Part shown: positions 3,201 through 59,128 of the stretch, piece by piece | Numbering within the stretch: position 1 is the first letter of the stretch | Layout: the number at the start of each line of letters is the position of its first letter | Assembly: GCA_021776475.1 (NCBI GenBank) | Contig: JAJFFV010000005.1 | Location: 62,001 to 126,000 of the forward strand | DNA: 64,000 nt | Origin: Parvularculaceae bacterium | GTDB lineage: Bacteria; Pseudomonadota; Alphaproteobacteria; Caulobacterales; Parvularculaceae | Direction: 5' to 3' | The notes under the pieces: model-generated | The model's input: only the letters and a program-made list of their open reading frames with translations | Told to the model about the DNA's origin: nothing | Database searches by the model: none | Made by a program: the position numbers and the translations under genes

Positions 3201-3247
3201 AATACCAATCCGTTTGCCGTTCGAAAATCTTAGTAAGTGGTTTACGG

Positions 3248-3255
3248 ATGGTTAA
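3248..3255 (-). promoter_or_regulatory. CtrA-type half-site upstream of fliM
   Basis: The minus strand reads TTAACCAT here, 47 bp upstream of the fliM ATG. The same octamer stands at a similar distance before fliF (13648-13655) and before the histidine kinase at 17323. TTAACCAT is the known half-site of the alphaproteobacterial cell-cycle regulator CtrA, which controls early flagellar genes in Caulobacter. Binding here is inferred. Confidence 0.4.
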
Positions 3256-3397
3256 TTCCCATGCGCATATTTCAACTTTAGCGCGATTAATCACGTTTTT
3301 ACACTTATGGCTAATTATTCCTAAGTTCTCATTTTGTCACCTGGGTGTCAGAGCCGGGAACACACAGAGTAGAAAAAACAGGGCCGGGTGGTATAAA

Positions 3398-4210: not shown

Positions 4211-4296
4211 ATTGCTGATTGTAAGAGACCCGTTATTCCTTTCTTAACGGTCGAAACTTACAACCTATAGTCGCAGTTTACAAAAGGGCTAAACTT

Positions 4297-5601: not shown

Positions 5602-5645
5602 TTTAGTGGAGAGGGCGCAACTAGCGTGACAAGGAGACAACATCC

Positions 5646-7115
5646 ATGACACTTTCCCGCGCCCTCTCCAATGCCTATTCCGGCCTCGCAACAGCATCGT
5701 TCCGGGCTGATATTGCCTCCAACAACGTCGCCAACGCGAACACACCCGGATATGTCCGGCGCACCGCTTTGCTTGCTGAGAACACCGTTGGGGGCCTGGG
5801 TGCCGGTGTTCGGGCAATTGGGGTTGCACGATCTCAAGACGTTGCTCTTTCTGCGGAACGTCGCCAAGCAGAAGCCTCTGCCGGTCGCGCCGATGTTATT
5901 TCCCGGGCCTACACGGAACTTAATCGCGCGCTTGGCGAACCTGACGATGCAACCGGACTGTTCGCATCGTATCAAGGGTTCGAGACAGCGATGCGCGAAC
6001 TTTCCTTGACGCCTGAATCAGCAGCGCTGCAAAATGGTCTTTTCACATCCACGAACCAATTGGTCACACAGCTCAACGATTTATCATCCCTTGGACAACG
6101 CCAGCGCGTAGAGGCTGATACCGCCATCGCAAAAGCTGTCACGACGATTAACAGCAACCTGAATGAGATTGAACAAATCAATGGCGATATCGCCGGTCTC
6201 AATGAGCAGTCTGGAGAGGCAGCGGCGCTTGAAGATCGGCGCCAGCTGCTTGTCGACCAGATTTCACAATTTATTCCAGTAAAACAAATTCCCGGTAATC
6301 AGGGCACTATTAATCTGATTACCAATGAAGGGGTTTTTCTTTTGTCGGGTAGGGTTCGAGAAATCAGTTTCTCTCCCGCTGTGTCGATCCCTCCCGGTGC
6401 CACATACGACGATGGAGCTGGCAGCTTGTCAGGCCTGAGCGTTGGCAACCAGAATATTACCCCAGGCAGCTCAAGCACATTTGCTGGTCAATCAGGCCTG
6501 ATGGCAGGTTTCTTCTCCGTTCGCGACGCGTCAGCGCCGGAATTTCTGGATCAAATCGACGCGTTGGCAGCCGATCTCATCAGTCGTTTTTCCGACGACG
6601 CACTGGACCCAACCAAAACACCAGGCGATCCAGGCATCTTTACCGACAACGGCAATGCGCTTGACCCGTTGAATATTACCGGCCTCGCCAGCAGGCTCAA
6701 AATCAATGCAGCAGTTGATCCGGCCCAAGGCGGCCTCCTGTCACGGTTCCGTGATGGTCTTGGGGCGACAGTTGAAGGACCTAGCGGAGACGCCTCGATC
6801 ATCGGCAACTTCCTTGATGCCTTTACTGCACGACAAACCGCCCCTGCAGGATCCGGTCTCACTGGTTTCTTATCATCGATTGAATCGGTCGCGGGCGTTA
6901 CCTCTCTTGTCGGAGACAAACGCGTTCGTTCTGATGCGGTTCTTTCCTCAGCGATCGCGCGCGCTGAGATTCTCAGCGATGCTGAGCTCGCTAAAACCGG
7001 TGTCGATACTGACCAGGAACTACAATCTCTTCTGTTGATTGAACAAGCCTATGCAGCCAACGCACGTGTGGTTCAGACAGTCAGTGACATGATCAACAGA
7101 CTCTTACAGATCTGA
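5646..7115 (+). CDS. flgK: Flagellar hook-associated protein 1 FlgK
   Basis: A 489-residue hook-filament junction protein. The N-terminus has the flagellar rod motif (ALSNAYSGLATASFRADIAS, then NNVANANTPGYVRR). The C-terminus has the matching helix (DQELQSLLLIEQAYAANARV, then VQTVSDMINRLLQI). The middle contains the FlgK-type EINQINGDIAGLNEQ-like segment around residues 175-190. GGAGA lies upstream of the ATG. It is followed directly by flgL, whose ATG starts one base after the flgK stop. Confidence 0.95.
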   Translation: MTLSRALSNAYSGLATASFRADIASNNVANANTPGYVRRTALLAENTVGGLGAGVRAIGVARSQDVALSAERRQAEASAGRADVISRAYTELNRALGEPDDATGLFASYQGFETAMRELSLTPESAALQNGLFTSTNQLVTQLNDLSSLGQRQRVEADTAIAKAVTTINSNLNEIEQINGDIAGLNEQSGEAAALEDRRQLLVDQISQFIPVKQIPGNQGTINLITNEGVFLLSGRVREISFSPAVSIPPGATYDDGAGSLSGLSVGNQNITPGSSSTFAGQSGLMAGFFSVRDASAPEFLDQIDALAADLISRFSDDALDPTKTPGDPGIFTDNGNALDPLNITGLASRLKINAAVDPAQGGLLSRFRDGLGATVEGPSGDASIIGNFLDAFTARQTAPAGSGLTGFLSSIESVAGVTSLVGDKRVRSDAVLSSAIARAEILSDAELAKTGVDTDQELQSLLLIEQAYAANARVVQTVSDMINRLLQI

Positions 7116-7116
7116 T

Positions 7117-8127
7117 ATGTTTCTTTCATCCGTCCCAGACCTGCTTTCTTTCAACCGGTTCTCAAGAATAACCGCTGACTTGAAGAGCAAGATGAACCAG
7201 GCTTCGGTCGAGGCTGTTACTGGACGTCGGGAAGATCTGACTGCAGCAACAAAAGGCGCCGTTGGCGACGCCCATCTACTGAACAAGGCGCTGCAGGATA
7301 TTGAAAGCCGCAGCAATCTGTTTAATTTGACCGAGACAAGATTCAATTTGATGGGCCAGACCTTAAAAGGAGCCAGAATTACACTGGACAGTATAGGCAC
7401 GCGAGTTCTGAGCGTTCTTTCGAGCAACAGCAGCTCTGGGATTACAACAATTATCGATGAATCTGAGACAAACTTGCGAACAATATTCTCATCACTACAA
7501 GTCAATCAGGCCAATCGCAATTTGTTTTCTGGTGACGCGACTAATCTCCCACCCCTCGGAGATGTTGAACAATTGTTAAGCGACGTGCGCGGGATTGTGG
7601 CCGCGGGGCCGGATGTTGCAACGATCACCGCACAACTGGACACTTATTTTGATGATCCGACCGGGGGTTTTCAAACGAATATTTACCAGGGGGGCTCAGG
7701 CAACGCGACGCCCGTCCTTCTGGCGAATGATACCAGGATTGATTTTACGGTACGTGCGGATGATCCAGCGATCAAAGAAGTTTTGCGCGGTCTTGCGATC
7801 ATCGCCTCGGGCGATGTCGCGCCCTTCGCCCGTTTTTCCGCCGACTTTTCTGAGCTGTTTGATGCCGGCTCTTTTGCCATCAACAACGGAGAATCCGGTC
7901 TAGTTGAACTGGAAGCCACACTAGGCATTGGTTTGCAATTGATCGCCAACGCGGAAGATATCCAGGAAGCGGAAAAAATTACTCTGACTTCTGCCTACAA
8001 TAGTATGACGGCCCGAGATCAGTTTGAAGCTTCCACAGAATTGAAATTCCTCGAGACTCAACTCGAAACGTCGTACATCTTGACGAACCGCCTCTCAAAC
8101 CTGACCCTTTCCAATTTCTTACGGTAG
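7117..8127 (+). CDS. flgL: Flagellar hook-associated protein 3 FlgL
   Basis: A 336-residue flagellin-like junction protein, second in the hook-filament adaptor. Seen: an N-terminal flagellin-type helix with the QASVEAVTGRREDL segment, a middle with a short beta-rich insert, and a C-terminal helix (LTSAYNSMTARDQFEASTEL, then TSYILTNRLSNLTLSNFLR). The start is one base after the flgK stop, so translation is very likely coupled. Flagellin itself is not in the window. Confidence 0.88.
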   Translation: MFLSSVPDLLSFNRFSRITADLKSKMNQASVEAVTGRREDLTAATKGAVGDAHLLNKALQDIESRSNLFNLTETRFNLMGQTLKGARITLDSIGTRVLSVLSSNSSSGITTIIDESETNLRTIFSSLQVNQANRNLFSGDATNLPPLGDVEQLLSDVRGIVAAGPDVATITAQLDTYFDDPTGGFQTNIYQGGSGNATPVLLANDTRIDFTVRADDPAIKEVLRGLAIIASGDVAPFARFSADFSELFDAGSFAINNGESGLVELEATLGIGLQLIANAEDIQEAEKITLTSAYNSMTARDQFEASTELKFLETQLETSYILTNRLSNLTLSNFLR

Positions 8128-17322: not shown

Positions 17323-19218
17323 ATGCAGGAAAATTATTCACCATACTATGACGCTCTGAGTGAGTTGATTATGATTTGCGATCACAATGGCTTGTGTGTG
17401 TACGTGAATCCGGCCTTTTGCACAATTTTTGGCGGGCAAATATGTGAATGGGTCAGCAAACCCGTTGACCTGTTGAACATGCCAGATTGTGAACTGGCTG
17501 AAATGCCCGGTCCACAAACAAGCAATCCGTCGACCTTTATAACAAACTATAAAGGAGAGCAGGCGTTTTCGCTTGAATGGTTCCGATCCACTCTGAACGA
17601 CAAGCATATAGCTTATACTGGGCGCAATATTTCTGACCATGTCAGGGCCGAGCTTTTTTTGCAGGAAACGGCACAACACATTCAGGATGCAAGCGACGCT
17701 AAAATGCGGTTTCTCGCGACAATGAGTCACGAAATAAGAACACCTCTCAACGGTATTTTGGGTATGGCCGGGCTCTTGCTCGACAGCGATCTGGCAGACA
17801 ATCAACGCTCATATACCGACGCCATTCAGGAATCTGGTACTGCGCTCCTTGGTTTGGTTAATGACATTCTCGACTATTCAAAAATTGAGGCCGGCAAACT
17901 CGAACTCGAAGATGTCTCCGTAGAACCACATCGTCTGATCTCGGGAATATTTGAACTTTTGTCTCCACGGGCAGCTCAAAAGGGTCTTGAACTCGCAACT
18001 TATATTGACCCGTCTGTGCCTGAAAAGCTTCTTGTTGATGAGGTCCGGCTACGTCAGGTTTTGATGAATCTCGTTGGTAATGGTATCAAATTTACCGAAG
18101 AAGGCGGCGTTACGATTGAGCTGTATGCTGCTCCAGGGGATAGGCCTGAGACGTCTCTGGTGACATTTCATATTCGCGACACGGGCATTGGCATACCGGA
18201 AACAGAACAGAAAAAGATATTTGACGAATTTGCGCAGGCCGATGGCACCAATGCCCGCAAATACGAGGGCACAGGACTTGGTCTGGCGATCGCCCGACGC
18301 ATCGTCAGTCTGATGAACGGCGTTATCTCTATTGAGAGCGTGCCTGACCAAGGCAGTACGTTTTCATTTACGGTCGAAATGAAAGTGGAAGATGAACCAT
18401 TTGAGAAGGCATTTGAGGCAGCCCCCGATATCCCGGTCGTTGTCTTGACCAGCTCTCCAATTCTCCGGAATATATTAACCCTTCAACTGAAATCCATTGG
18501 TATAAAGAGAAGTTTTTTCACAAACAATGCAGACGACTGCATCGCACTCCTTGAGAAATACTATGATGCAAAACTCTTATGCGATCTACCATTCGCGACG
18601 ATGCACGGGTACAAACTAACACAAAAAGCGTCGAGCTCGCTGGTGTTGTTGTCCCAGGCGGCGCGCGGCCGACTGGACGCATTTGTTAAAGTCGGCTTCA
18701 CCGGCTATCTGATTAAGCCAATTCGTCAGACCAGCCTGCGGGAAAGAGTTGTGGGTCAGGGCCGATCTGGCACAGATTGCACCGACACGGGGACGGTAAA
18801 CAACCAGCCGTCAGACACAAATGAATGTCATCGAGTACTGCTGGCTGAAGACAACAATATAAACGCCATTCTTGCCAAGGCGATCCTACACAAACTCGGC
18901 TACGTTGTGGATCATGTTGAAAATGGCAAACAGGCGATCGAAATGGTTCAAACCGCTGACTACACTCTGGTTCTCATGGATATGCGCATGCCGGAGATGG
19001 ATGGACTCGAAGCGACACAGAAAATCAGAACCCTTGGGGGCGAATACAAATCCATCCCTATCATCGCCCTGACCGCGAACCATTCTTTAGCCGACAAAGA
19101 AGCTTGTCATGCTGCTGGCATGGACGATTTCCTGACCAAACCGTTCGACCCAGAGGACCTCGAATCCAAACTCCTGCACTGGAGCGATGAGGCGTCACCG
19201 GTACGAACCGCTCTATAA
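17323..19218 (+). CDS. PAS-domain hybrid histidine kinase with a degenerate and an intact receiver
   Basis: 631 residues, no membrane segment. Order: PAS-like domain (about 5-105, with ICDHNGLCVYVNPAFCTIFG), HisKA with phospho-acceptor His136 in MSHEIRTPLNGILG, HATPase ([35 protein letters not shown]), a middle receiver-like region (about 375-475) and a canonical C-terminal receiver (VLLAEDNNINAILA, VLMDMRMPEMDG, LTKPF). The middle region keeps the final lysine loop (GYLIKPIRQ) but has lost the usual acidic pocket. No response regulator or effector is adjacent. Possible CtrA control from the upstream site suggests a cell-cycle or motility link, which is inference. Confidence 0.92.
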   Translation: MQENYSPYYDALSELIMICDHNGLCVYVNPAFCTIFGGQICEWVSKPVDLLNMPDCELAEMPGPQTSNPSTFITNYKGEQAFSLEWFRSTLNDKHIAYTGRNISDHVRAELFLQETAQHIQDASDAKMRFLATMSHEIRTPLNGILGMAGLLLDSDLADNQRSYTDAIQESGTALLGLVNDILDYSKIEAGKLELEDVSVEPHRLISGIFELLSPRAAQKGLELATYIDPSVPEKLLVDEVRLRQVLMNLVGNGIKFTEEGGVTIELYAAPGDRPETSLVTFHIRDTGIGIPETEQKKIFDEFAQADGTNARKYEGTGLGLAIARRIVSLMNGVISIESVPDQGSTFSFTVEMKVEDEPFEKAFEAAPDIPVVVLTSSPILRNILTLQLKSIGIKRSFFTNNADDCIALLEKYYDAKLLCDLPFATMHGYKLTQKASSSLVLLSQAARGRLDAFVKVGFTGYLIKPIRQTSLRERVVGQGRSGTDCTDTGTVNNQPSDTNECHRVLLAEDNNINAILAKAILHKLGYVVDHVENGKQAIEMVQTADYTLVLMDMRMPEMDGLEATQKIRTLGGEYKSIPIIALTANHSLADKEACHAAGMDDFLTKPFDPEDLESKLLHWSDEASPVRTAL

Positions 19219-19346
19219 CGCTGGCTTATCCTGCGAACCTTTCCAATACCTTAACAGAGCAAGCATACTTTTTCACCTACTGGGTAAGGATTAGTAAAGG
19301 ATAAATTATTCCCTGCTAACAATAATCACCTTTGGCAGAGGATGGT

Positions 19347-20477
19347 ATGCAGAAAATTGCCTTGCGCATGTTGTGGGCTGACACGGGCAAATCGCTCGCG
19401 ATGGTGCTTGGAATTGCATTCTCTACGTTACTGATGGCGCAACAAGCTGCGATTTTCTTCTGCCTCATGAACAATACTGCTTCTCACATTACCGCAGCAC
19501 AGGATGTTGATGTCTGGGTATCCGATCCCCGGTCCGATTATTTTGACGACCCCGGTAGCCTGCCACAGGGTTTGCTCAATTCGGTTCGCAGCGTCGAAGG
19601 TGTTGAGTATGCTGTGCCTTTTATCAGAGGGCAGGTAACGGTCGATTCCCCCAACTTTGTCGAACAGGCGATCCTCATTGGCATTGACCCGATAACAAAG
19701 CTCGGCGCCCCACAAAAAATGATCGAAGGCTCGCTGGACGCGCTGAAAGCAAGTAACGTTTTTGCAGTCGACAAACGTGGATACAGCGACATCTGGCCGA
19801 ACGAGGATATCGTCCTTGGCCGGTTTCTTGAGGTGAATAACCATAGATTGAAACTAGTCGCAGTCGTTGATCCACCCTCCCCGTTTATTTCCATGCCGCT
19901 TATTTATACCGGTTTTACAACCGCTTACGGCGTTACCGGAAACCAGCGTCCATCATTCATCCTGGTACGCATAACAGATGGCCAAAACGCTGTTGGCCTG
20001 AGTGCTGCAATCGCTGAAAGAACGGGGTATGTTGCCCAACCCAGTGATGATTTCGCAAAGTCGACCGTCGCCTACTATATGAAAAACACGGGTATTCCGA
20101 TAAATTTCTTTATCACAATCGTTCTCGGGTTTGTGGTTGGCCTCGCTGTCGTTGCGCAGACTTTTTACCTTTTCATCACTGAAAATATCAAGAATCTTGG
20201 CGTGATGAAAGCGATGGGTGCAACAGGTTGGCAACTCACCCAGATGACGTTACTACAATGCGCCCTTGTTGCCGGTATCGGCTTTAGCATTGGCATAGCA
20301 GGTGCCGCATGGTTTTTTGAAACCGTGCCGAATAGCGTCACCGCCTTCAAGGGGTTCTACTTACCATGGGAAGTTTACTTGAACACCGCGATTGCAATTC
20401 TCGGGATTTCATTATTCGCCGGCCTGATTAGTATACAGCGCGCCATCCGATATGCGCCCGCAGAAGTCCTGAGGTAG
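19347..20477 (+). CDS. DevC-like ABC exporter permease (FtsX/MacB type)
   Basis: 376 residues with an N-terminal membrane helix, a large extracytoplasmic domain (about residues 40-245) and three C-terminal helices (FFITIVLGFVVGLAVVAQTF, a second around LLQCALVAGIGFSIGIAG and a third near AIAILGISLFAGLIS), the FtsX permease layout. The early segment DVWVSDPRSDYFDDP resembles cyanobacterial DevC. I start at ATG 19347 behind GAGG rather than at TTG 19332. It forms an operon with an ATPase (5-bp gap) and a membrane-fusion protein, together a DevBCA-like exporter that moves substrates from the inner membrane or periplasm outward. No dedicated outer-membrane factor is adjacent. Confidence 0.88.
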   Translation: MQKIALRMLWADTGKSLAMVLGIAFSTLLMAQQAAIFFCLMNNTASHITAAQDVDVWVSDPRSDYFDDPGSLPQGLLNSVRSVEGVEYAVPFIRGQVTVDSPNFVEQAILIGIDPITKLGAPQKMIEGSLDALKASNVFAVDKRGYSDIWPNEDIVLGRFLEVNNHRLKLVAVVDPPSPFISMPLIYTGFTTAYGVTGNQRPSFILVRITDGQNAVGLSAAIAERTGYVAQPSDDFAKSTVAYYMKNTGIPINFFITIVLGFVVGLAVVAQTFYLFITENIKNLGVMKAMGATGWQLTQMTLLQCALVAGIGFSIGIAGAAWFFETVPNSVTAFKGFYLPWEVYLNTAIAILGISLFAGLISIQRAIRYAPAEVLR

Positions 20478-20482
20478 GCCCG

Positions 20483-21190
20483 ATGGAAGCCGCAATAAGT
20501 TGCAATAATCTGGTCAAAAGTTTTGGTAAGGGATCCAGTTCACAGACCGTTCTCAACGGTATAAATCTCGATCTTTCGGCCGGCGAATTGACTATCATCG
20601 CGGGACCAAGCGGTTCTGGAAAGACAACGTTGCTCTCGATTCTTGCCTGCACCCTGCGGCCCACTTCCGGTTTTGCAGAAGTCTTCGGTCAAAACATCGC
20701 GCAGCTGACGAACGCTCAAATGGCAAGGCTCCGGCGTCACGACGTTGGGTTCATTTTCCAACAGTACAATTTGATCCCTGCTCTTACAGCCGCCGAAAAT
20801 GCAGCGATTCCGCTTATCATTGCGGGCGCGCCCTACGACAAGGCAGTCGAGGCCGGCCGCCGGGTCCTCGGCAAATTTGACCTCACAGAACACAGCCATA
20901 AATATCCGCGACAAATGTCAGGTGGACAACAGCAACGCGTTGCCGTTGCGAGGGCGCTTATACACAAACCGCGCCTTGTCATCTGTGACGAGCCAACAGC
21001 GGCACTTGATGCCAAGTCGGGCGAAACAGTCATGCAAATATTGAGCGACATCGCCGCGTCAAAAAATCGCCTGGTCATCGTCGTGACGCATGATCACAGA
21101 ATTTTTCACCATGCGGACCGGCTGGTCGAAATGAATGACGGCAATATCGTCTCAAATCCAGATCAACACAACTATGCGAGGATAGCATGA
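20483..21190 (+). CDS. DevA/LolD-like ABC transporter ATPase
   Basis: 235 residues. Walker A GPSGSGKTTLL, Q-loop FIFQQYNLIPALTAAENAAI, signature MSGGQQQRVAVARAL, Walker B LVICDEPTAALD and switch VVTHDHRI are all intact. It belongs to the MacB/LolD/DevA subgroup that pairs with FtsX-type permeases. It overlaps the membrane-fusion gene by 4 bp (ATGA) and follows the permease by 5 bp. Confidence 0.95.
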   Translation: MEAAISCNNLVKSFGKGSSSQTVLNGINLDLSAGELTIIAGPSGSGKTTLLSILACTLRPTSGFAEVFGQNIAQLTNAQMARLRRHDVGFIFQQYNLIPALTAAENAAIPLIIAGAPYDKAVEAGRRVLGKFDLTEHSHKYPRQMSGGQQQRVAVARALIHKPRLVICDEPTAALDAKSGETVMQILSDIAASKNRLVIVVTHDHRIFHHADRLVEMNDGNIVSNPDQHNYARIA

Positions 21191-22341
21191 GCCCACTCAT
21201 CTTCAGAAAAGAGGTGCTTCTTTACGGTATTGCCGGTGCTTGTCTTGGTTTTGCGACGATATCGATCGCACAGTCTCAACCCGCCAGTTCACGGACCGAA
21301 CCACGTGGCCCGGTCAATGCGCCACCCGTTGCCTCGATGATAGCTGCAACCGGCATTCTGGAACCGTCGTCTGAAACTATTCTCATTGTACCAGAAATTG
21401 AAGGACGTGTTTCTTCAGTTCTGGTCAAGGCCGGTGATTTCGTTCGCAAAGGACAGATACTGTACACGCTTGACGATAATGTCCTGATGGCTGCTGTGGA
21501 CGAAGCAAGAGCCCGTGTTGAACTCGCCAGATCTGAAGTTGCACTGCACAGGGCAAACATTCAATCGGTTAAGACCACCACTGATGGGTTGCGTTTTAAA
21601 TTCAACCAGCTGAGCAACCGGGTCGAGCGATACCGCCCTCTTCAGCCAGATGCTATCAGTCCCGATGAATTTGAAAAATTAGTTACAGAAGCGAATGACG
21701 CTTTTTACAATATGCGCAATGCCGAGAATCAACTTGAAGCATCGCGTCACATACTCAACGTCGCGGAAAAAGAACTGGCCCTCGCGACTAAAAAATTATC
21801 CGTTGCCGGCGCCCAACACGAGCGAACAAAGCTACGCGCTTCGATTGATGGGCAAGTGCTCAGTGTGAACTTGCGCGAAGGTGACGTTTTTACTGCACCA
21901 AGAGATCCTGATTTGTATGTCAACATCGGCAATATCCAACAATTGCACGTCCGTGCTGAAATCAACGACACGGAAGTTTCCAGATTTTACCCTGGAAATG
22001 CAGCTACCGCTTACCTTCGCGATGTTCAATCATCAACAATCGCATTGCGATTCCTTACGTCTGATCAAATCCTGACGACCAAAAGCCAGGTCAACAATCA
22101 AGCTGCCGAACTAACAGACATGCGGATTTTGAACGTGGTGTATCGGGTCGAGGGAACAACAGTTCCTCTTTATGCCGGTCAATTGGTGGATGTTTATATT
22201 GAAACAGGATCGAGCGATGCGTTCGCCGACGTCAAGCCTGTTGCATCCATCCAACCTCCAACCACAACTAACCTTCCGACAACACTAGAAAATACGGCTT
22301 ACTGGGAGACCCGGTCCGGCGATCAGAAACTAAGATTCTAG
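21187..22341 (+). CDS. HlyD/DevB-like periplasmic adaptor
   Basis: 384 residues. A weak N-terminal signal anchor (LYGIAGACLGFATISIA) is followed by a lipoyl-like half (PEIEGRVSSVLVKAGDFVRK and GQILYTLDD), a long helical hairpin (about 105-220), the second lipoyl half (TKLRASIDGQVLSVNLREGD) and a beta-barrel domain. This is the adaptor of the DevBCA-like exporter. Its 3' end faces the acyltransferase operon across a hairpin. The exporter could move a lipid or acylated metabolite, but nothing in the sequence names the cargo. Confidence 0.9.
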   Translation: MSPLIFRKEVLLYGIAGACLGFATISIAQSQPASSRTEPRGPVNAPPVASMIAATGILEPSSETILIVPEIEGRVSSVLVKAGDFVRKGQILYTLDDNVLMAAVDEARARVELARSEVALHRANIQSVKTTTDGLRFKFNQLSNRVERYRPLQPDAISPDEFEKLVTEANDAFYNMRNAENQLEASRHILNVAEKELALATKKLSVAGAQHERTKLRASIDGQVLSVNLREGDVFTAPRDPDLYVNIGNIQQLHVRAEINDTEVSRFYPGNAATAYLRDVQSSTIALRFLTSDQILTTKSQVNNQAAELTDMRILNVVYRVEGTTVPLYAGQLVDVYIETGSSDAFADVKPVASIQPPTTTNLPTTLENTAYWETRSGDQKLRF

Positions 22342-22395: not shown

Positions 22396-22430
22396 AACCG
22401 GGATAGATGGAAGCGCTCCTTATCCCGGTT
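22396..22430. terminator. Hairpin between convergent genes
   Basis: AACCGGGATA at 22396-22405 pairs exactly with TATCCCGGTT at 22421-22430 around a 15-base loop. It lies between the convergent adaptor gene and acyltransferase gene. There is no T-run, so it may act as a bidirectional 3'-end stabiliser or a weak terminator. Confidence 0.55.
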
Positions 22431-22439
22431 GAGAGCTGA

Positions 22440-23132
22440 TCAACCAAATATCAACGGATGTTTCTCCGGGCGCAAACGCTTCATATCTTCTTCGACAACC
22501 TCGAGATCACAATAACATGGCTGGCGCAAACCGTGGTATTCTCGCGGCTCACCAAGCGGATCAAACCGCACCCCTATTCTCGCAAGAAGCATCAATAGAG
22601 CAGGTTCCATCGTGGCACAAAGATACCGGATGTTATTCTCCCGTGCCATTACGACCACACCGTGCATCAGATGGATGGAAAGAGCTGACAAACCACCGCT
22701 TATTGGGCTTCCTTTTTCGTCCTTATGTGCAGCATCGGTAGTTCGGCGATTGTAGTCCTGCGTCACTGAAAACCGTGAAACTTCGGCGATCCGTGTCATA
22801 TCAACATCATCACCCAGTAGTTCAAATGGGGACGGCTTCATTTCCTGAATCGGAAGGGCAGGATTTTTTACATCACCCGAAGGAAGTATAAGTCTGACCA
22901 CACCGATGCTGTCACCATTGTCTCCTCTCGTCAGGAGAGCGTGTCCAGCTCGTTCATCATACTCGTCGTATTCACGACCCTTGTTGATGTTCACTTCGTT
23001 ATACCAACCACGCTCTACACAATATACTTTGTAGCGCAATCGCTGACATTTGACGACGTGCTCTTCTTCACGCGATACGGTAAGTTCCAATGGAACCTGG
23101 GATTCGGGAGTGCGGCGTTTTGCTGACAGCAT
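22440..23132 (-). CDS. Exosortase-associated/FeeM/LuxI-type acyltransferase (possible N-acyl amino acid or autoinducer synthase)
   Basis: 230 residues, soluble. The GNAT-like fold of the LuxI/FeeM superfamily is visible: RLRYKVYCVERGWYNEV near residue 30, acidic EYDEYDERAGHALL, then SIGVVRLILPSG and IAEVSRFSVTQDYNRR, followed by a helical region and RYLCATMEPALLMLLARIGV. This is the pattern of the putative PEP-CTERM/exosortase-system acyltransferases. These are related to N-acyl amino acid synthases that take acyl chains from acyl-ACP. No luxR-type gene or exosortase is adjacent. The start overlaps the yfiR-like stop by one base (TAATG), so it is the last gene of the receptor operon. A role in making an acylated signal is inference. 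Confidence 0.8.
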   Translation of the reverse strand: MLSAKRRTPESQVPLELTVSREEEHVVKCQRLRYKVYCVERGWYNEVNINKGREYDEYDERAGHALLTRGDNGDSIGVVRLILPSGDVKNPALPIQEMKPSPFELLGDDVDMTRIAEVSRFSVTQDYNRRTTDAAHKDEKGSPISGGLSALSIHLMHGVVVMARENNIRYLCATMEPALLMLLARIGVRFDPLGEPREYHGLRQPCYCDLEVVEEDMKRLRPEKHPLIFG

Positions 23133-23731
23133 TACCTAACCCCCCCTGTTTTGACGATCTCTGCAAGTCGCAATACGCCCGCTCCCAGGGAGATCTTTGC
23201 ATCGTTTACGGAATCCAGGTTGACCTTGAAACGGAGCTTGCGGTCAGCAAGGTACAACTCTATTTGCCCGCCCTGTATCGTAAAACCTGATTTGTCCGAG
23301 ACCAGGAGGATCGCACTTTCTTGCGCCAGATCGAAGTATTTCTCGAAGTCCGCAGGCTCAGTTACTTCACCGACAAACATTATTGAACATGATGAAAGCT
23401 GGTACTGATCGAAGGTATCGAAAAATGTGACCCTGACCGGTCTCTTTTGAACCTGTTTTCGCCCCCAACCATCAAACGCGGCAGCATTTAGTGTGTCGCG
23501 TTGGATACAAAACTGAACAGTTATGTCGAGGTCATCAACCTCTGGCCAGGACGTAAACTTCGCAAAGTTAAACAAATACGCGGCTTTAAGCGCGTCCGCA
23601 GAATTTTTGCTTGGCGCCTGTGCATACGCACCCGAGCCAATGCTCAGACACAAAGGCAGGCAACAAAAGCCGACGAGCATTTGTCGAGCCCTTCGTAGCC
23701 ATCTGGCCTTGGGTTGAAACAACTTCCACAT
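23132..23731 (-). CDS. YfiR-family periplasmic protein (DUF4154)
   Basis: 199 residues. A Sec signal peptide (LVGFCCLPLCLSIGSGAYAQ) is followed by the family core: LKAAYLFNFAKFTSWPE, VQFCIQRDTLNAAAFDGWGR, IMFVGEVTE, ESAILLVSDKSGFTIQGG and IELYLADRKLRFKVNLDSVN. In Pseudomonas, YfiR is a periplasmic inhibitor of YfiN through its CHASE8 sensor domain. The hybrid kinase at 27543-29870 carries a CHASE8-type domain, so the same contact is plausible here. It lies 11 bp after the TonB receptor and overlaps the acyltransferase by one base. Confidence 0.9.
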   Translation of the reverse strand: MWKLFQPKARWLRRARQMLVGFCCLPLCLSIGSGAYAQAPSKNSADALKAAYLFNFAKFTSWPEVDDLDITVQFCIQRDTLNAAAFDGWGRKQVQKRPVRVTFFDTFDQYQLSSCSIMFVGEVTEPADFEKYFDLAQESAILLVSDKSGFTIQGGQIELYLADRKLRFKVNLDSVNDAKISLGAGVLRLAEIVKTGGVR

Positions 23732-23742
23732 AACGACGATCC

Positions 23743-25782
23743 CTAATATTTCTTCGTTATCGAGACATGGAAGCTTCGTTCTACCCCAGTTGGGATTGTC
23801 GCAAATGACGGGTCAACGCCGAACTCGAAGTTACTGTTGTCCGTCAGGTTCCGGCCCGTCACAGCCAAGCTGGTTTGACTGGTAAGACGATATTCAACGC
23901 GGGCATCCACCGCTGTATATCCTCCTATGCCGAACCCATCGAGGTCGTCCGAATGCCGTACCGCTGTATCGAACCTGAGTGAATCCGTTACATCGTACAG
24001 GGAGCGCAACGTCATCGTATGAGCTGCATCTCCCCCGCCTGGTTCACTGACCAGAACATTCGGTGCGGTCGGCAAATCGCCGTCAATTTCGAGATAAGAC
24101 ATCGTCCCTTGCAGGCGCCATCTATCCTGCACCTGCCAGTCCACAACAACTTCAACGCCATGCGTGTCCGCATTGACTAGTTCGTCTACAGTCAATGGCA
24201 GGACTGCCACTGGCACTACAGTTGTATCGATAGTCGGTGCGCCGATCACAGATCCCCTGAGGTCTTCATATTGATTCAAGAACGCTGCCACATCAATGGA
24301 GAAATTCTCTCGCAGCCGCAGTCTTGTACCTATTTCATAAGCGACCAGAGTTTCCGATTCAATCGTTGGGTCTCCGGTAAACCTGAATACCAGAGGGAGT
24401 GGTCCCGGATTAACGCCGGGGACACCCGGTGGAACGACCTGGCTGTTTACACGAACATTATCTTCAGCCCGCGAAGGTGTGCGCACCGCTCTGGAAATCG
24501 CTCCCCAGATGGTTTTTCCTTCAGCCACCAACCACGTAAAGCGTATAGACGGCTGGACTTCGAAGCCAGTGTAGTCGTTGTGCGAAAACTTTGATCCAAT
24601 TGTGACGGCGACGTCTTCTGTTAGTTCAATCGTATCTTGAACGAACGCATTAAAAATCTCATCTGTGCGGCTTGTCGGATCGAACTGAACAAACTCGCTG
24701 TTCGTGATGTCATCGTTGATATACCGATAACCGGCGCCCCATAACAGATGGTGCATTTCACCAACAGGCATCGAGTGCTGTACTTGCAGATCAACGGTAG
24801 TACGTTCTTCTGTGCCTTGTGGAATTTCAATATCGCTATAGTCGACATATGCCTGTACTGACACCTCTGACTCGTTCCCAAGATCACGTGCCCAGTGAGT
24901 CAGAATATGCGCGTTTGTACGTTCGATTTCTGCATCACGCCGCTCAAGAAACGGTGGTACCAGCAAGGGTACATCGAGCGTTTCGCCGGCATCGACCATC
25001 GTGAAATCGCCCGAAAACATAAACTTGTCAGTTTCACTCGGTTTATGGTCTGTGCGAAAGCCGGCCGTGAAAATACTCCAACCGTCATTTGCATTGACGC
25101 CGCTCGCAATTTCCCGGTCATCATATTTTTCATATTTTGCATGCACGCGATAAGTCGCGGTTTCGTTCAAGTCGCCGCCATGACGGAGGATCAACTGCCC
25201 TGCCAGATCATCGCCTGCGCTCGCCTTGATCAATGTACCTTGGGTGTCGTCGCTAGATCTGGTAATGATGTTAATAACACCATTAACAGCGTTAGCACCC
25301 CACAGAGTACCACCGGGGCCGCGAACCACTTCAATGCGCTCAATGTCTTCAAGAATTAAATTTTGCTTATCCCAATTCACACCGGAGAACAGCGGAGTGA
25401 AAACTGTACGGCCATCAATCATTACCAAGAGCTTGTTAGCAAAGCGGCTGTTAAAACCGCGTACTGTGACTGCCCAGGAGTTTGCATTGATTTGCGCCAC
25501 ATTAACACCCGGCACCAATCTTAATGCGTCGGGGACCGTGGTTGCGCCAGAGCGCTCGATGTCGGTCCGTGTCAACACGAAAACAGCTGCCGCCGCTTCG
25601 GACGCCGCTTCTTTCCGCTTTGAAACAGTCGTGACTTCTACATTCATGAGGTCTTCGAGAGACATCGATGTAAAATCGTCACCAACTGTGTCATCTGCCC
25701 ATGCACTAACTGCCAGAGCAGAGATACTGACGGACGCCATAACCAATGCCTTGTTGCACCGTCTGATCACTTGTCCAGACAT
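23743..25782 (-). CDS. TonB-dependent outer-membrane receptor
   Basis: 679 residues: signal peptide ending AVSAWADD, then a characteristic lead SMSLEDLMNVEVTTVSKRKE, the plug domain (IERSGATTVPDALRLVPGVN, FNSRFANKLLVMIDGRTVFT, IERIEVVRGPGGTLWGANAV) and a beta-barrel ending in an aromatic-type terminus (HVSITKKY). The plug lead is typical of receptors paired with YfiR-like genes. The ligand is not evident. It is transcribed with yfiR and the acyltransferase; an 86-bp gap separates it from the kinase gene upstream, where a separate promoter may lie. Confidence 0.93.
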   Translation of the reverse strand: MSGQVIRRCNKALVMASVSISALAVSAWADDTVGDDFTSMSLEDLMNVEVTTVSKRKEAASEAAAAVFVLTRTDIERSGATTVPDALRLVPGVNVAQINANSWAVTVRGFNSRFANKLLVMIDGRTVFTPLFSGVNWDKQNLILEDIERIEVVRGPGGTLWGANAVNGVINIITRSSDDTQGTLIKASAGDDLAGQLILRHGGDLNETATYRVHAKYEKYDDREIASGVNANDGWSIFTAGFRTDHKPSETDKFMFSGDFTMVDAGETLDVPLLVPPFLERRDAEIERTNAHILTHWARDLGNESEVSVQAYVDYSDIEIPQGTEERTTVDLQVQHSMPVGEMHHLLWGAGYRYINDDITNSEFVQFDPTSRTDEIFNAFVQDTIELTEDVAVTIGSKFSHNDYTGFEVQPSIRFTWLVAEGKTIWGAISRAVRTPSRAEDNVRVNSQVVPPGVPGVNPGPLPLVFRFTGDPTIESETLVAYEIGTRLRLRENFSIDVAAFLNQYEDLRGSVIGAPTIDTTVVPVAVLPLTVDELVNADTHGVEVVVDWQVQDRWRLQGTMSYLEIDGDLPTAPNVLVSEPGGGDAAHTMTLRSLYDVTDSLRFDTAVRHSDDLDGFGIGGYTAVDARVEYRLTSQTSLAVTGRNLTDNSNFEFGVDPSFATIPTGVERSFHVSITKKY

Positions 25783-25868
25783 AAATATTCTCCAAGATTT
25801 TTGTTAAGTTGCCTCAAATAGATGAAAATTCTTCTAATTCCGCGGTTATTTGGGTGTGGAAACATCGG

Positions 25869-27140
25869 TTAAGCGATCTTTTGGACGGAAGTAAGTGATT
25901 GAATCAGTGTACGGTCTGGCGGAAATGTCACAAAGACCGTTGTCCCTTTCTCAGGTACGCTGTCAATTCCCATTGATGCTCCGTGCAAATCCAGAATTGC
26001 CCGAGCTACAGGAAGGCCGAGACCAAGACCCTCATGCGTTCTGTTCAACCCAGCGGAATTTTGCTGGTAGGGCTGCATAATCTGTTCAATGCTGTGAGGA
26101 CTGACCCCGACACCCTGATCGGAGACACTGATTCTGATTTCCATGTTATCCAGAATTTCTGCTTTAACCTGGCAGGATGTTTCTGCCGGTGAAAACTTTA
26201 CAGCATTTGACAAAATATTTACGAGCGCCCGCTGGATCTTCTTCTGATCACAGATCAATGCAATCTCGTCTGGGCAGTCTATCGCGATATCGATATTTTT
26301 TTCGCTTGGACACGGCTTGGTTCGCCCTAACGCGGCCCTGATCACAGATCCAATATTCACTTCGCTTTCTTTAAGCTCGAGTTTTCCAATATCGTATGAG
26401 GACATCGTCAGAATATCTTCAACGATATTCAATAGCTGATTGGCGCTTGTGGAAATATACGTTCCGTATTCGCGGCATTGTTCAAGACCAATCTGCTTTT
26501 CTTCGTTATTGGCAATCAAATCCGCAAATCCGATGGCGATATTCAGTGGCGTTTTGAGTTCGTGGGTCAGAACTGTAAAAAACTCCGATTTCGCCTTATT
26601 TTCTTTTTCTGCTGCCAGCTTTTGTTCGAGCAAGACTTCTTCCGCCGCCATTCGTAATTTTACTTCGCGCGCTAGTTCCTCATTTTGCCGCTGCAGATCA
26701 ATTGTACATTGAGCAACGAGGCGTTCGGCACCCTCAGCAAACTGCTTGATTTGTTTGCTCGCGTCACTCAGCTGAAAATGAGTTCCTATCCGCGAGCGAA
26801 GCGTCTTTGAATTGATGGGTTTGGTCACATAATCGTTTGCACCGAGCTCAAATGCTTTAACGACAGCATCCGGATCAGAATCCGCCGTGATCATGAGGAT
26901 TGGCAATTCAGATTTGTCACTGACCCGGCGTAGGCGTTTTAAAACTTCAAGGCCATTCATTGCGGGCATGTGGATATCCAAGAGGATCAGATCCGGATTA
27001 TAATTATCCAAATCGTCAAGGATTTCCTGACCCGAGCTAAACTCAACTGACTTGTGGCCCATCTTTTTAACCAGACGTGCAGCGATGTCCCGGTTAAAGG
27101 ATTCATCATCAACAATCAGTATCAATTTCTCGTCTGTCAT
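25869..27140 (-). CDS. Receiver-histidine kinase (REC-HisKA-HATPase)
   Basis: 423 residues, soluble. N-terminal receiver (LILIVDDESFNRDIAARLVK, PDLILLDIHMPAMNGLEVL, NDYVTKPIN), a linker coiled coil (QRQNEELAREVKLRMAAEEV), HisKA (FTVLTHELKTPLNIAIGFAD) and HATPase (VNILSNAVKFSPAE, VSDQGVGVSPH, LGLGLPVARAIL). The ATG at 27140 is preferred over one at 27173 that would overlap the upstream gene by 20 bp. The receiver-first architecture suits a relay step after the hybrid kinase and the single receiver upstream. Confidence 0.92.
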   Translation of the reverse strand: MTDEKLILIVDDESFNRDIAARLVKKMGHKSVEFSSGQEILDDLDNYNPDLILLDIHMPAMNGLEVLKRLRRVSDKSELPILMITADSDPDAVVKAFELGANDYVTKPINSKTLRSRIGTHFQLSDASKQIKQFAEGAERLVAQCTIDLQRQNEELAREVKLRMAAEEVLLEQKLAAEKENKAKSEFFTVLTHELKTPLNIAIGFADLIANNEEKQIGLEQCREYGTYISTSANQLLNIVEDILTMSSYDIGKLELKESEVNIGSVIRAALGRTKPCPSEKNIDIAIDCPDEIALICDQKKIQRALVNILSNAVKFSPAETSCQVKAEILDNMEIRISVSDQGVGVSPHSIEQIMQPYQQNSAGLNRTHEGLGLGLPVARAILDLHGASMGIDSVPEKGTTVFVTFPPDRTLIQSLTSVQKIA

Positions 27141-27153
27141 TGCTGGCTTTCTT

Positions 27154-27546
27154 TCAATGCCCCGAGGTCGCATAGGAATTCTCCGCGTTGTGCAAAGTTT
27201 CGATTTGCGCTACGAGATTCTTAAAGTTCACAGGCTTAGTCGCAAATTCCGAACATCCCGCGTTCATACATTTTTCGCGATCACCCTCCATGGCGTGAGC
27301 CGTCAGTGCGATGATTGGCAATCTCTTAAATTGATCAAGTTTTCGTATGGCGACGGTCGCTTCGATGCCGGACATCACAGGCATACTGATATCCATAAGG
27401 ATCATATCCGGATGTTCGCGCACAGTCATTTCAACCGCCACTTTCCCATCACATGCTTCAATCACGTTGTACCCTCGGCGCTCAAGTCTGCGGCGAAGGA
27501 TTTCACGGTTGTCGATGTTATCTTCAGCAACGAGAATGCGCATCAT
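27154..27546 (-). CDS. Single-domain response regulator
   Basis: 130 residues, one CheY-like receiver and no output domain: RILVAEDNIDNREILRRRLE, MILMDISMPVMSG with the phospho-acceptor Asp, ALTAHAMEGD and FATKPVN. It lies between two kinases: the ATG overlaps the stop of the upstream hybrid kinase (ATGA), and the next gene starts 13 bp later. Probably a diffusible phosphotransfer element linking the two. Confidence 0.93.
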   Translation of the reverse strand: MMRILVAEDNIDNREILRRRLERRGYNVIEACDGKVAVEMTVREHPDMILMDISMPVMSGIEATVAIRKLDQFKRLPIIALTAHAMEGDREKCMNAGCSEFATKPVNFKNLVAQIETLHNAENSYATSGH

Positions 27547-29870
27547 CCGGCTTCCCTCTTCTCGCGCTCTTGCGGGCTCGCGGCAGCCGACTGATTCATC
27601 AGATCGGAAACGACAGACCTCGGAGAAGCAGCCCCTTTTACATGGTAGCCCTGCGCATCCTCACGTAGTTGAGCAAGATGGTCATTTGTCAGTTCCTGTG
27701 CAGAAAAAACAATCACGGGAATGTCCTGCCACAATACGTTTCCACGCAGGCGCTGCAAAAATTCAAATCCGTCCATACCAGGCAGGCCAAGATCCAGGAT
27801 GACTCCAACAATCGCCGAATCCTGTTCGAGGCAGGCGAGCCCCTCTTCCGCGCTGCCAGTGACAGTGACGGTGTATCCAACATTGGTGCCTGCCCGCTTA
27901 ACAAGATCGGCGGCGTCATCATTGTCTTCAACGACAAGAATTTTCCCGCCGGCAAGTTTTGTGTATGATAGCAGCGCGCGCTCCAGCTCGATGCGATTCA
28001 CGGGCTTGGTGAAGTAATCCTCAGCACCCAGGCGGTAACATTCACGCTGATCATCGTCGACGCTAATGACAATTGTGGGTATCGATGCCAGCGTTTCGTC
28101 TGCCCGAAGCTGTTCAAGTAAAGTCCAGCCATCCATTACTGGCATATGCAGATCAAGCAATATTACGGATGGTCTGTGTTCTCCGGCATATTGCAGCGCT
28201 GTTTTTCCATCGCTGGCTGTAACAGTTTCATAACCGAGCCTGTCCGCAATACGCTGCATCAACTCAAGAGCGGCTGGGTCGTCATCGACGATCAGCGCTT
28301 TGCGCACATCGGAGGCAGCGCTTTTTTCGGGTTCTGCGATCAGCTGAATGGTCTTATCAGTTTTTGCTTCGTCGTCACTGATGTGTGACGGGTGTACACG
28401 TGGCACATGGATTGTAAACGTACTGCCCAGACCTTCCTGGCTATCCACATCCATCCGCCCGCCCATTAGCTCAACAAGGCGTTTTGTAATCGCCAGGCCA
28501 AGACCAGTGCCGCCATATTGTCGCGTTGTCGAAGCATCTGCCTGAACAAACGCCTCAAAAAGTTTCGATACCTGGGACTGATCCATCCCAATACCGGTAT
28601 CTTGTATCTGGATTTTTATCCAATCGACGCCGTCCAACTGCACAACATCAACTGTGTTACGCACCACACCATTGCTTGTGAACTTGCAGGCGTTGCTTAG
28701 AAGGTTGAGGATACATTGATTGAGTTTCATAGAGTCGGTGATTGCATCTTTGACGTTTTCTTTGACTTCGATAACCAGCTGGTTGCCATTGCGATCAGCA
28801 GCCGGGCGAACGGTGTCTGACGCTTCACGGATCATGGTCTTGATGTCAAATTGATGTATCTCGACATCCATTTTACCAGCTTCGATCTTCGACAGATCAA
28901 GAATGCCGTTAATCAGATTGAGCAGATGCAGGCCGGCGCTTTGAATTTTCTTGACGTCAGAGACAAGCTCTTTTGATTCCTCCACATCGCCATCTTCAAG
29001 ATCCTCTGCCACCATTTCCGAGTAGTTGATAATCGCATTCAACGGCGTGCGAAGCTCGTGGCTCATGTTGGCGAGAAATTGTGACTTGGCCGTGTTCGAG
29101 GACTGGGCGTCGTCTCGCGCTTTCATTAAATCGCCAACGAGTTTCTCAAGACGCTCATCTCTACTCTCGATCTCTTCCAGCATGGCATTGAAGTTATCAA
29201 TGAGGCGGCCAAAATCCTTATCAGGAGACGTTTTCACACGGGCTGAGTAGTCGCGTGTTTCCCGGATGGACTGGATGGTGTTGCGCAGATGCAGCATCGG
29301 ACTGTACATTGCCGCCGCTTCCCACCGTGCCAGAACAATTGCAAAAAGAATTGATCCCACGAAGACGATTGCGGCGATCAGTGCATAACTTGAAATTGTT
29401 CGCTGCAACTCGTCCAGATTAGTCAATAGCACCAGTTCGCCGATAACATCTTCCTCGACGACGATTTCACTGGTGAACGCAGGGCCCTGGTGGCTGTTGA
29501 TGAAATCCCGTTGAACGCTGGACAACCCGACTGGTATGCCGGGCTTAGCGTAGAAAGAGAAAATCTCACCGTCAGGCGTTTGCACATACGCGGCATCAAC
29601 TTGCGGCGTCAACCTTGTGGCGCTCAGCACTTCCTTGGCGGATATGTCGTCATTGAACAGCACTGCTGCGGAGGTGTTAGCGGCGAGAACTTCCGAAAGA
29701 CTTTGTTGTTCTTGATCAAAGCCGATGCGATATGTCGCAAGCTCATGAACAGTGAACGCGATACAGGCAATTGCAACCGTCGCCGCACATGCAGCGATTG
29801 TGGCCAGTCCCATTTTGCTGCGAAATGACAGCCGTTCTATATACCCGGGTATTGTTGAAAACACAGCCAT
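27543..29870 (-). CDS. CHASE8-type membrane hybrid histidine kinase with two receivers
   Basis: About 775 residues from ATG 29870 (TTG 29876 also possible). Order: membrane helix 20-42, CHASE8-like periplasmic domain about 45-155 ([40 protein letters not shown]), membrane helix 161-183, HAMP, HisKA with His271 in [16 protein letters not shown], HATPase ([23 protein letters not shown]), receiver 1 ([14 protein letters not shown]) and receiver 2 ([13 protein letters not shown]). CHASE8 is the sensor of YfiN, which YfiR binds; the YfiR-like gene in this locus makes it the likely ligand-binding partner. First gene of the leftward signalling cluster. Confidence 0.93.
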
Positions 29871-30069
29871 GCCCAATCCAGTTCACTATCGGATCAGGGG
29901 TTATTTGGTATTGTTATCTCCCCTGAAAACGACACATGTTTGGCATGGAATTCCTGATATTTTGTTAAGCATATTTTTTGAACAAATATCCTTATACCGA
30001 ATTAACTTCGGCTTCATTGTTACTTCCAAAATATTAACGTCATTCACAATTAGGCTTTTATTAATCCGT

Positions 30070-44861: not shown

Positions 44862-44940
44862 CGCGAAAATATCGCTAGAGGAAATTATCGGCAATTCTCA
44901 ATTTTGCCGGTAAATATCAGTGAGCGACGACATTTACTAT

Positions 44941-44969
44941 TTGTCAGCGTTCGCCGACATATATATAAT
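44941..44969 (+). promoter_or_regulatory. hipBA promoter with operator palindrome
   Basis: TTGTCA at 44941-44946, a 17-bp spacer and a perfect TATAAT at 44964-44969. The imperfect palindrome TGTCAGCG-TT-CGCCGACA (44942-44959, 7 of 8 pairs) covers the -35 and spacer. This is the expected site for HipB autorepression. The start of transcription would fall near 44976, which rules out GTG 44920 and ATG 44968 as the main hipB start. Confidence 0.7.
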
Positions 44970-44988
44970 GTCAACAAACGGTGACTTT

Positions 44989-45285
44989 ATGGCTGTATTC
45001 ACAATCAAAAACGCAAAAGACCTGGGACTTGCGATCCGTGACCGCCGGCGGGCGCTCAGGCTTAATCAGGCAACACTGGCGAAGCAGGCCGGTGTCAGCC
45101 GACAATGGATTGTCGACATTGAAAAAGGCAAGCCCAGGGCGGCTGTCGGCCTGGTTCTTAAGACCCTGCACGCAGTCGGGATCAGTTTTACGACGAACGA
45201 TCCATCCGACCAGAAATCCGGTGTGTTAGTGCCCGTGGCCGACATCGACGATGTCCTCAGCCGAACCAGCGGGAGCCGCAAGTGA
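44989..45285 (+). CDS. hipB: HipB-type antitoxin and repressor
   Basis: 98 residues. Xre-type helix-turn-helix: KDLGLAIRDRRRALRLNQAT, then LAKQAGVSRQWIVDIEKGKP. The C-terminus is a short flexible tail (VADIDDVLSRTSGSRK). It neutralises HipA and represses its own promoter in the known family. The ATG at 44989 is chosen because the promoter places the transcript start near 44976. It overlaps hipA by 4 bp (GTGA). Confidence 0.88.
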   Translation: MAVFTIKNAKDLGLAIRDRRRALRLNQATLAKQAGVSRQWIVDIEKGKPRAAVGLVLKTLHAVGISFTTNDPSDQKSGVLVPVADIDDVLSRTSGSRK

Positions 45286-46553
45286 CCGCAGACCTGCTTG
45301 TCCTTGCCAATGGTCAGGAAATGGGCCGGGTAACCTGCGGCGCCACCATAAAACTGGCGTTTGTTTATTCGGATACCTGGCGCAACGCCGCCAATGCCTT
45401 TCCGTTGTCGCTCTCCATGCCGCTGGCTGCGGCCCGTCATGACCACAAGGTTGTCGATCCATTCCTGTGGGGATTGCTGCCGGACAATGAATATGTGCTC
45501 AAAAAATGGGCCGCGAAATATCATGTATCGCCACGAAACGTCTTCGCGCTGGTGTCGCATGTCGGAGAGGATTGTGCGGGCGCGGTACAGTTCGTCACGC
45601 CGGAGCGTCTCGAACAGTTCAGTATTACCGGTAATGTCGAATGGCTCGATGACGCCGAGATTGAAGCGCGGCTCACTGCGTTGCGCGAAGACCATGCCAC
45701 GGGACGGCAGCCGCGGGACAAAGGACAATTCTCGCTGGCGGGCGCGCAGCCGAAAACTGCGCTGATTTTTCAAAATGGCAAATGGGGTATCCCGTCGGGC
45801 ATTATTCCGACCACGCATATTCTGAAACCGCCCACAGGCGATTTCGACGGATTTGCCGAGAACGAATATTTCTGCATGGAACTCGCACGCGCTGCAGGAC
45901 TGAACACAGCTAATGTCGGAGTACGGACTTTCGGTAATGAAGTTGCGTTTGTCACCGAGCGTTATGACAGGGCTTATCAGGATGACACATTGATCCGGGT
46001 GCATCAGGAGGATTTGTGCCAAGCACTGGCTGTCTCTCCGTTCACCAAATATCAAAATGAAGGCGGTCCCGATGTCGGTAACATCGTACAGCTTCTGCGC
46101 GACAGTTCCGATGATGCAGTTGCCGACATTGGAAACTTCCTCAAAACCATCGCCTTTAACTGGATTATCGCCGGTACTGATGCGCATGCCAAGAACTTCT
46201 CTATGCTGCTGGGTGCCGGTGGGCGGGCACGGCTGGCGCCGCTATACGACCTTTCAAGTGCACTGCCCTATGACGACATGCAGTTTCAAAAACTGACCCT
46301 CGCCATGAAGATTGGTGGGAAGTACCGGCTTCGCGATATCGGTCTGCGACAATGGCAAACACTCGAAACGGAGATGGCGCTCGATGAGGGCACTCTCATT
46401 GAACAGGTGAAGTCCATGGCAGCGCCGCTTGCAGATCTCGCTGCAAATACTGCAAACAACGCCCACAAATGCGGTATAACCCATCCAATGATAGAGCGTA
46501 TCAGAGAGCGTATTGCAGAACGTGCGGCTTTGTGTGCCAAGGCACTCACGTGA
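45282..46553 (+). CDS. hipA: HipA-type toxin kinase
   Basis: 423 residues, full length, GTG start. The HipA-N domain lies at about residues 1-110. The kinase domain shows QFSLAGAQPKTALIF, ATP-binding HILKPP, AENEYFCMELARAAGL, ERYDR, RVHQEDLCQALAV, catalytic NWIIAGTDAHAKNFSML and APLYDLSSALPY. In E. coli, HipA phosphorylates glutamyl-tRNA synthetase and induces dormancy; targets vary among relatives. The catalytic residues look intact, unlike the neighbouring Fic gene. Confidence 0.92.
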   Translation: MTADLLVLANGQEMGRVTCGATIKLAFVYSDTWRNAANAFPLSLSMPLAAARHDHKVVDPFLWGLLPDNEYVLKKWAAKYHVSPRNVFALVSHVGEDCAGAVQFVTPERLEQFSITGNVEWLDDAEIEARLTALREDHATGRQPRDKGQFSLAGAQPKTALIFQNGKWGIPSGIIPTTHILKPPTGDFDGFAENEYFCMELARAAGLNTANVGVRTFGNEVAFVTERYDRAYQDDTLIRVHQEDLCQALAVSPFTKYQNEGGPDVGNIVQLLRDSSDDAVADIGNFLKTIAFNWIIAGTDAHAKNFSMLLGAGGRARLAPLYDLSSALPYDDMQFQKLTLAMKIGGKYRLRDIGLRQWQTLETEMALDEGTLIEQVKSMAAPLADLAANTANNAHKCGITHPMIERIRERIAERAALCAKALT

Positions 46554-59119: not shown

Positions 59120-59128
59120 GACAAAATC

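Follow-up and report, generated by a model that had tools for sequence, protein, structure and literature searches.

A TIGR03694 acyltransferase, a probable N-acyl amino acid synthase, within a TonB receptor-YfiR-CHASE8 kinase operon of Parvularculaceae

We analysed a 64,000-nucleotide stretch (the window) of contig JAJFFV010000005.1 (positions 62,001 to 126,000, forward strand) from a Parvularculaceae bacterium (assembly GCA_021776475.1), and report that a TIGR03694 acyltransferase lies in one operon with a TonB-dependent receptor, a YfiR-family periplasmic protein and a phosphorelay headed by a CHASE8 hybrid kinase, adjoined by a convergent unit that encodes a second hybrid kinase and an exporter. 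Because the enzyme shares its operon with a receptor and a relay, and an exporter is often adjacent, the cells may produce, secrete and detect a fatty molecule of their own; we put forward tentatively that the ten genes together do so as a cassette. An earlier note, made from the same sequence, had described six leftward genes as one signalling locus: the single operon stands, but the locus had been drawn too small, the convergent exporter and second hybrid kinase having been missed.

The acyltransferase operon and its sensory genes

All six leftward genes (22440-29876) lie where the earlier note had placed them, and Pfam and NCBIfam confirm the domains that it had named:

27543..29876, minus strand: CHASE8 hybrid histidine kinase with two receiver domains (ATG at 29870 is the likelier start; AAVLF is residues 68-72 from that ATG)
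27154..27546, minus strand: stand-alone receiver, motif ILMDISMPVMSG
25869..27173, minus strand: receiver-histidine kinase (possible start at 27140)
23743..25782, minus strand: TonB-dependent receptor (best NCBIfam match NF053590, TOL_0244)
23132..23731, minus strand: YfiR/HmsC-like periplasmic protein (signal peptide judged by eye)
22440..23132, minus strand: TIGR03694 acyltransferase (N-acyl amino acid synthase/LuxI-like)

The overlaps reported at the joints are also present, as ATGA between the CHASE8 kinase and the lone receiver and as TAATG between YfiR and the acyltransferase; the frames of the lone receiver and the receiver-kinase overlap as well, and the receptor gene is preceded by an 86-base gap and followed by 11 bases. 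The same six genes stand in the same order at three further loci (L007, L008 and L066), and the last three (receptor, YfiR, acyltransferase) at a fourth (L065). Since the order recurs in L007, L008 and L066, the set is more than a chance assembly. By motif patterns, the CHASE8 kinase has a histidine box and two receivers, the lone receiver a single one, and the receiver-kinase and the second hybrid kinase each one histidine box with one receiver. A Pfam scan of the six genes found neither a DNA-binding nor a GGDEF domain, and the last output step probably lies outside the locus.

The last gene had been assigned to a broad LuxI/FeeM/exosortase superfamily. It does exceed the Pfam cut-offs for Acetyltransf_5, FeeM and Autoind_synth, and its assignment can be sharpened to TIGR03694 (exosort_acyl), which it matches at 160.9 bits against a curated cut-off of 111.95; the FeeM match (PF21926, 40.1 bits, cut-off 27) covers only profile positions 2-95 of 158. 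The protein thus resembles both the exosortase-associated acyltransferases and the FeeM-type synthases, over both cut-offs and with LuxI-type residues kept. Seven of its residues (R33, E54, D56, D59, R80, E117 and R120) align with what we take to be the LuxI catalytic set; they are invariant in five YfiR-linked acyltransferases and occur in all 37 other TIGR03694 proteins compared, save for E117 (36/37). W43 is not general, being found in 5 of those 37. Weak matches were returned by a PDB search with the acyltransferase profile, the best being homoserine lactone synthases (6wn0, E 1.4e-04). The enzyme probably links a fatty acid to an amino acid.

A tree of 42 acyltransferases was built from the five linked proteins and 37 from over-cut-off loci of the class and phylum samples described below, one per genome, without G501 and second copies, for which no locus was returned. 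The five YfiR-linked enzymes form one group in it (support 100/99), a separate clade within TIGR03694 whose genes neighbour YfiR and not exosortase genes. Passages of papers citing Craig 2011 state that some N-acyl amino acid synthases have a genetic link with PEP-CTERM/exosortase genes, and passages of PMC4897644 describe the physiological function of such synthases as unsettled. Membership of the Craig 2011 synthases in TIGR03694 is something we infer, because the passages on them never name that family. A scan of viral contigs revealed no relative of the acyltransferase, and plasmid searches gave only distant ones in four records (two Alteromonas, a Rhizobium and a Halomonas; 24-29.5% identity); one of the Alteromonas enzymes is overlapped by a gene for 171 amino acids, possibly a YfiR by its layout, that matches no Pfam family, and the Rhizobium record carries no annotation.

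The sensory half of the operon is of a known kind. The YfiR gene scores 110.3 bits against PF13689 (YfiR/HmsC-like; cut-off 24.9), and its AlphaFold model, of moderate quality (pLDDT 66), finds YfiR itself as best PDB match (4yn7, E 7.2e-05, TM-score 0.41/0.50); a profile from four close relatives gave no PDB match, and a wider one from 11 sequences does. The hybrid kinase carries CHASE8 (53.9 bits, cut-off 27), HisKA, HATPase and two receivers, with HAMP under its cut-off (20.2 of 25). In the passages of Malone 2012 (PMC3375315), the AAVVF stretch of YfiN is the proposed binding site for YfiR, which would make contact with residues near F162 and L183. The kinase has AAVLF at this place, invariant in four kinases (the fifth locus is cut before the kinase), and F168 and L189 of YfiR (numbered on the 190-residue chain) align with F162 and L183 and are invariant in 11 YfiRs; on this residue comparison, the pairing of YfiR with the CHASE8 kinase that the earlier note had proposed is supported. 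The Pseudomonas pocket L166/I169/V176/P178/L181 takes F57 of YfiB and binds tryptophan and vitamin B6 weakly, with Kd in the tens of mM (passages of PMC4887326). By the same offset it maps to L172, V175, L182, A184 and L187 of the window YfiR, still hydrophobic, and one may speculate that an N-acyl aromatic amino acid might fit there.

The receptor has plug and barrel domains. Within NCBIfam, NF053590 scores highest for the receptor and NF053591 for YfiR, and NF053592 spans the sensor part of the kinase (residues 17-237), all under their cut-offs (634 of 645, 77.8 of 125 and 138.4 of 194 bits, respectively). From their names and consecutive numbers, these three models appear to belong together. 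The window's sensory half is of the same kind as the TOL_0243/TOL_0244 module, outside the strict models, and differs from it in that the model names include neither an acyltransferase nor an exporter. Compared with YfiBNR of Pseudomonas aeruginosa and the divergent YfiR-YfiN relatives in the passages of PMC3375315, the operon likewise joins YfiR to a CHASE8/PAS-type inner-membrane sensor with the contact residues kept; unlike YfiBNR, the ten genes include no YfiB, a TonB receptor being present instead, and the operon adds a receiver, a receiver-kinase and the acyltransferase. The novelty that had been claimed for the whole arrangement shrinks accordingly: YfiN-type sensors with kinase and hybrid kinase outputs were already reported in those 2012 passages, and NCBIfam models exist for the TonB receptor, the YfiR-like protein and a YfiR-associated kinase. 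What seems new is the acyltransferase in the operon, since none of the titles and examined passages of the open-licence literature searched joined YfiR or a TonB receptor to such an enzyme. In the family too, seven of the eight other kinases scanned beside YfiR genes (one per locus) carry CHASE8, so the YfiR-CHASE8 kinase pairing is ordinary there and the acyltransferase is the unusual part.

Further sets of this kind were seen in passing. The genome of the window has two more YfiR-CHASE8 kinase sets, at L009 (G000:C3:1-17000, 2075-7358) and L010 (G000:C6, 7689-10238), one of which lies on a 60-kb contig and includes a TonB receptor as well. At L016 (G031:C27, 10873-16546) a YfiR gene diverges from a CHASE8 hybrid kinase (41% identity to that of the window) and a second hybrid kinase; blastp of this 20-kb stretch found no receptor or acyltransferase homologue.

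Distribution and the convergent kinase-exporter unit

The family sample comprised 62 genomes, 20 of them less than 90% complete or more than 5% contaminated, and was searched with a profile from three acyltransferases. The enzyme occurs in five (the genome of the window, G011, G033, G441 and G458). The earlier note had stated beforehand that an acyltransferase found next to unrelated genes in close relatives would speak against its idea; in all five carriers the gene follows YfiR directly, with a 1-base overlap in the window and a 4-base overlap in the other four. The class sample contains 385 genomes, of which 10 score over the TIGR03694 cut-off, that of the window included; none of the nine others shows the YfiR linkage, and only G405 among them has YfiR-family genes, about 2 Mb away. 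The phylum sample has 31 of 398 genomes over the cut-off, 94 with a YfiR-family gene (E<=1e-6) and 13 with both, again counting the genome of the window; in the 12 others a distance of 55 kb or more, or a contig boundary, separates the two genes, and the linkage is found in none of the 30 other TIGR03694 genomes (G388 belongs to both samples). Within the samples searched, the YfiR-acyltransferase linkage is confined to one family. The receptor and YfiR genes were inherited along with it, since the receptor copies of acyltransferase loci form one group among 13 family copies (100/99), as do the YfiR copies among 14 (100/100; several YfiR branches are long).

The conserved locus reaches beyond the operon to 17323, through an adjoining convergent unit (17323-22341) of a second hybrid kinase and three exporter genes:

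17323..19218, plus strand: second hybrid histidine kinase (HHKb), which opens the exporter unit
19332..20477, plus strand: FtsX/DevC-like permease
20483..21190, plus strand: ABC ATPase, DevA/MacB-like
21187..22341, plus strand: HlyD/DevB-like membrane fusion protein
22396..22430, no strand: perfect inverted repeat of 10 bp that separates the convergent units and may be a terminator for both

The repeat is absent from the matches of a terminator scan, and promoter and terminator scans gave no clear surplus of sites over shuffled sequence. The four genes of this unit were scanned with NCBIfam for best matches: the permease is closest to DevC and the ATPase to DevA, and DevB is third for the adaptor. 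With adaptor, FtsX-like permease and ATPase as three genes, the unit resembles the tripartite DevBCA/MacB-type exporters; it differs from DevBCA in having a hybrid kinase ahead and no TolC gene, and in lying under all three Dev cut-offs. Glycolipids are the cargo of DevBCA, and products of various kinds that of other MacB relatives, according to passages of PMC5985334.

A permease match (E<=1e-20) is present in five of the 62 family genomes, four of which are acyltransferase carriers (hypergeometric probability of four or more in common, under independence, 4.4e-5); the kinase-exporter unit adjoins the six-gene operon in three genomes and lies on a separate contig in the fourth, G441. All ten genes recur in the same order in L007 (G011) and L066 (Marinicaulis IP29b_bin.134); L007 is identical to L064 (CADEDN010000046.1, an alphaproteobacterial metagenome-assembled genome), and the compared part of L066 to G458 (L121). 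G033 (L008) has the six genes and the second kinase without the exporter. The G441 locus L120, identical to Parvularcula UBA11161 contig L065, starts within the receptor gene and carries YfiR and the acyltransferase besides it, the exporter's place being taken by a gene that by eye resembles clpP; the kinase-exporter unit of this genome, on L119, is not convergent and stands beside histidine biosynthesis-like genes (by eye). Because both contigs are cut, the two units may be linked in some other way in G441.

Two observations stand apart from these. In another alphaproteobacterium, L052 (G392:C19, 2403-5651) carries a TIGR03694 acyltransferase followed by a match to the second hybrid kinase, and at 44920-46553 of the window lies a pair that by eye resembles HipB (XRE) and HipA.

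Self-sensing, one-way control and other readings

The LuxI/LuxR system pairs a synthase with its receptor. The window resembles it in its LuxI-type residues and in the close company of synthase and receptor genes, which share an operon whose frames overlap, an arrangement that would suit such a pair; it differs in that the receptor would be an outer-membrane TonB protein acting with YfiR and a phosphorelay. In the loop that we consider, the acyltransferase would couple an amino acid, or an amine like it, to a fatty acyl chain, and the MacB/DevBCA-like pump, with a TolC-type channel encoded elsewhere, would release the product. The TonB-dependent receptor would then bind or import it, and YfiR may alternate between a partner at the outer membrane and the CHASE8 domain. 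From there phosphate would travel through hybrid kinase, lone receiver and receiver-kinase to an output that lies beyond the locus, with the second hybrid kinase presumably working alongside the exporter unit. We favour this loop because the synthase is built into the sensor operon by overlapping frames and was co-inherited with a distinct receptor group. The co-occurrence of permease and acyltransferase, the LuxI-type residues and the contact residues of YfiR and CHASE8 speak for it as well. It is the likeliest of the readings weighed here, if well short of secure, with one-way control of an acyl product close behind; that the acyltransferase product is the receptor ligand is held equally cautiously.

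Several points weigh against the loop. The five carriers, all in one family, are few; no ligand or product has been named to date, and the passages searched name no ligand for TonB receptor-YfiR modules. The exporter falls far under the Dev cut-offs (DevA 225.9 of 295.8, DevB 67.6 of 129 and DevC 37.5 of 290.35 bits), and the low probability of the overlap of permease and acyltransferase ignores shared ancestry and assembly gaps. In G033, a single contig 99% complete, the acyltransferase and second kinase occur and no permease match at E<=1e-20 does, so the exporter would be dispensable or replaced there; G442 (L118) has the permease without an acyltransferase match, on a contig that ends just past the permease gene. 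The window YfiR has no equivalent of the Pseudomonas Cys145-Cys152 pair, and the AlphaFold model of the acyltransferase, made with four sequences, was poor (pLDDT 42.9) and was left unused. The receptor, furthermore, occurs without the acyltransferase in four of nine receptor-bearing genomes, and the receptor-YfiR-CHASE8 kinase set does so in G004, in G008 and as a second set in the genome of the window.

Because receptor-YfiR-CHASE8 modules are thus found without the enzyme, they can sense other things, and it is quite conceivable that the relay senses a nutrient, envelope stress or redox state and that the acyl product, as a surfactant, envelope lipid or biofilm factor, is its output. The presence of C75/C115, equivalent to the redox pair of Pseudomonas YfiR, in 11 of 11 aligned YfiRs is in keeping with such one-way control. 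A separate regulated unit might then have been expected, whereas the synthase lies within the sensor operon, frames overlapping, in all five carriers, and the acyltransferase-linked receptor copies form a group of their own; both facts are nonetheless compatible with one-way control.

It is unlikely that the exporter and its kinase make up an unrelated pump for drugs or lipids, a chance neighbour of an acyltransferase and relay that form a unit by themselves. The missing permease of G033 would suit this, as would an Asticcacaulis plasmid permease, 39% identical, that sits beside TetR- and TolC-type genes with no acyltransferase annotated within 9 kb in an incomplete gene table; on the other side, four of the five carriers of either gene also have the other, and the exception among permease genomes, G442, is the one with the truncated contig.

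Least probable is that the acyltransferase serves an exosortase/PEP-CTERM pathway and sits in the YfiR operon incidentally: TIGR03694 is named for that system, all five carriers have exosortase genes and in three of the nine others of the class sample (G061, G392 and G405) no more than 10 kb separate the acyltransferase from one, but exosortase occurs in 11 of 13 family genomes scanned, TIGR03694 over its cut-off in only two of the same 13, and the nearest exosortase in carriers is about 61 kb away (G033), 599 kb away (the sole match in the genome of the window) or on a separate contig (G011, G441 and G458), the acyltransferase following YfiR throughout. In the remaining class-sample genomes exosortase lies on another contig (G269, G289 and G424), about 2.6 Mb off (G388) or is not found (G440 and G376). 

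As exosortase is common in the family, the acyltransferase rare and the carriers' exosortase distant, the enzyme seems to have been recruited to the YfiR operon from an exosortase setting. The window also holds, at 55036-63871 and about 0.56 Mb from the only exosortase match of the genome, a cluster with a MOP flippase-like gene, a thioesterase-like gene (by eye, no NCBIfam match), a nonribosomal peptide synthetase with an aminotransferase domain and two hydrolases like exosortase A-associated hydrolases 1 and 2, below cut-off.

In summary, the locus ties an enzyme family of unsettled role to a receptor module and thereby offers a direct test of both. If the self-sensing loop holds true, it would add outer-membrane, TonB-type sensing of a self-made lipid signal.

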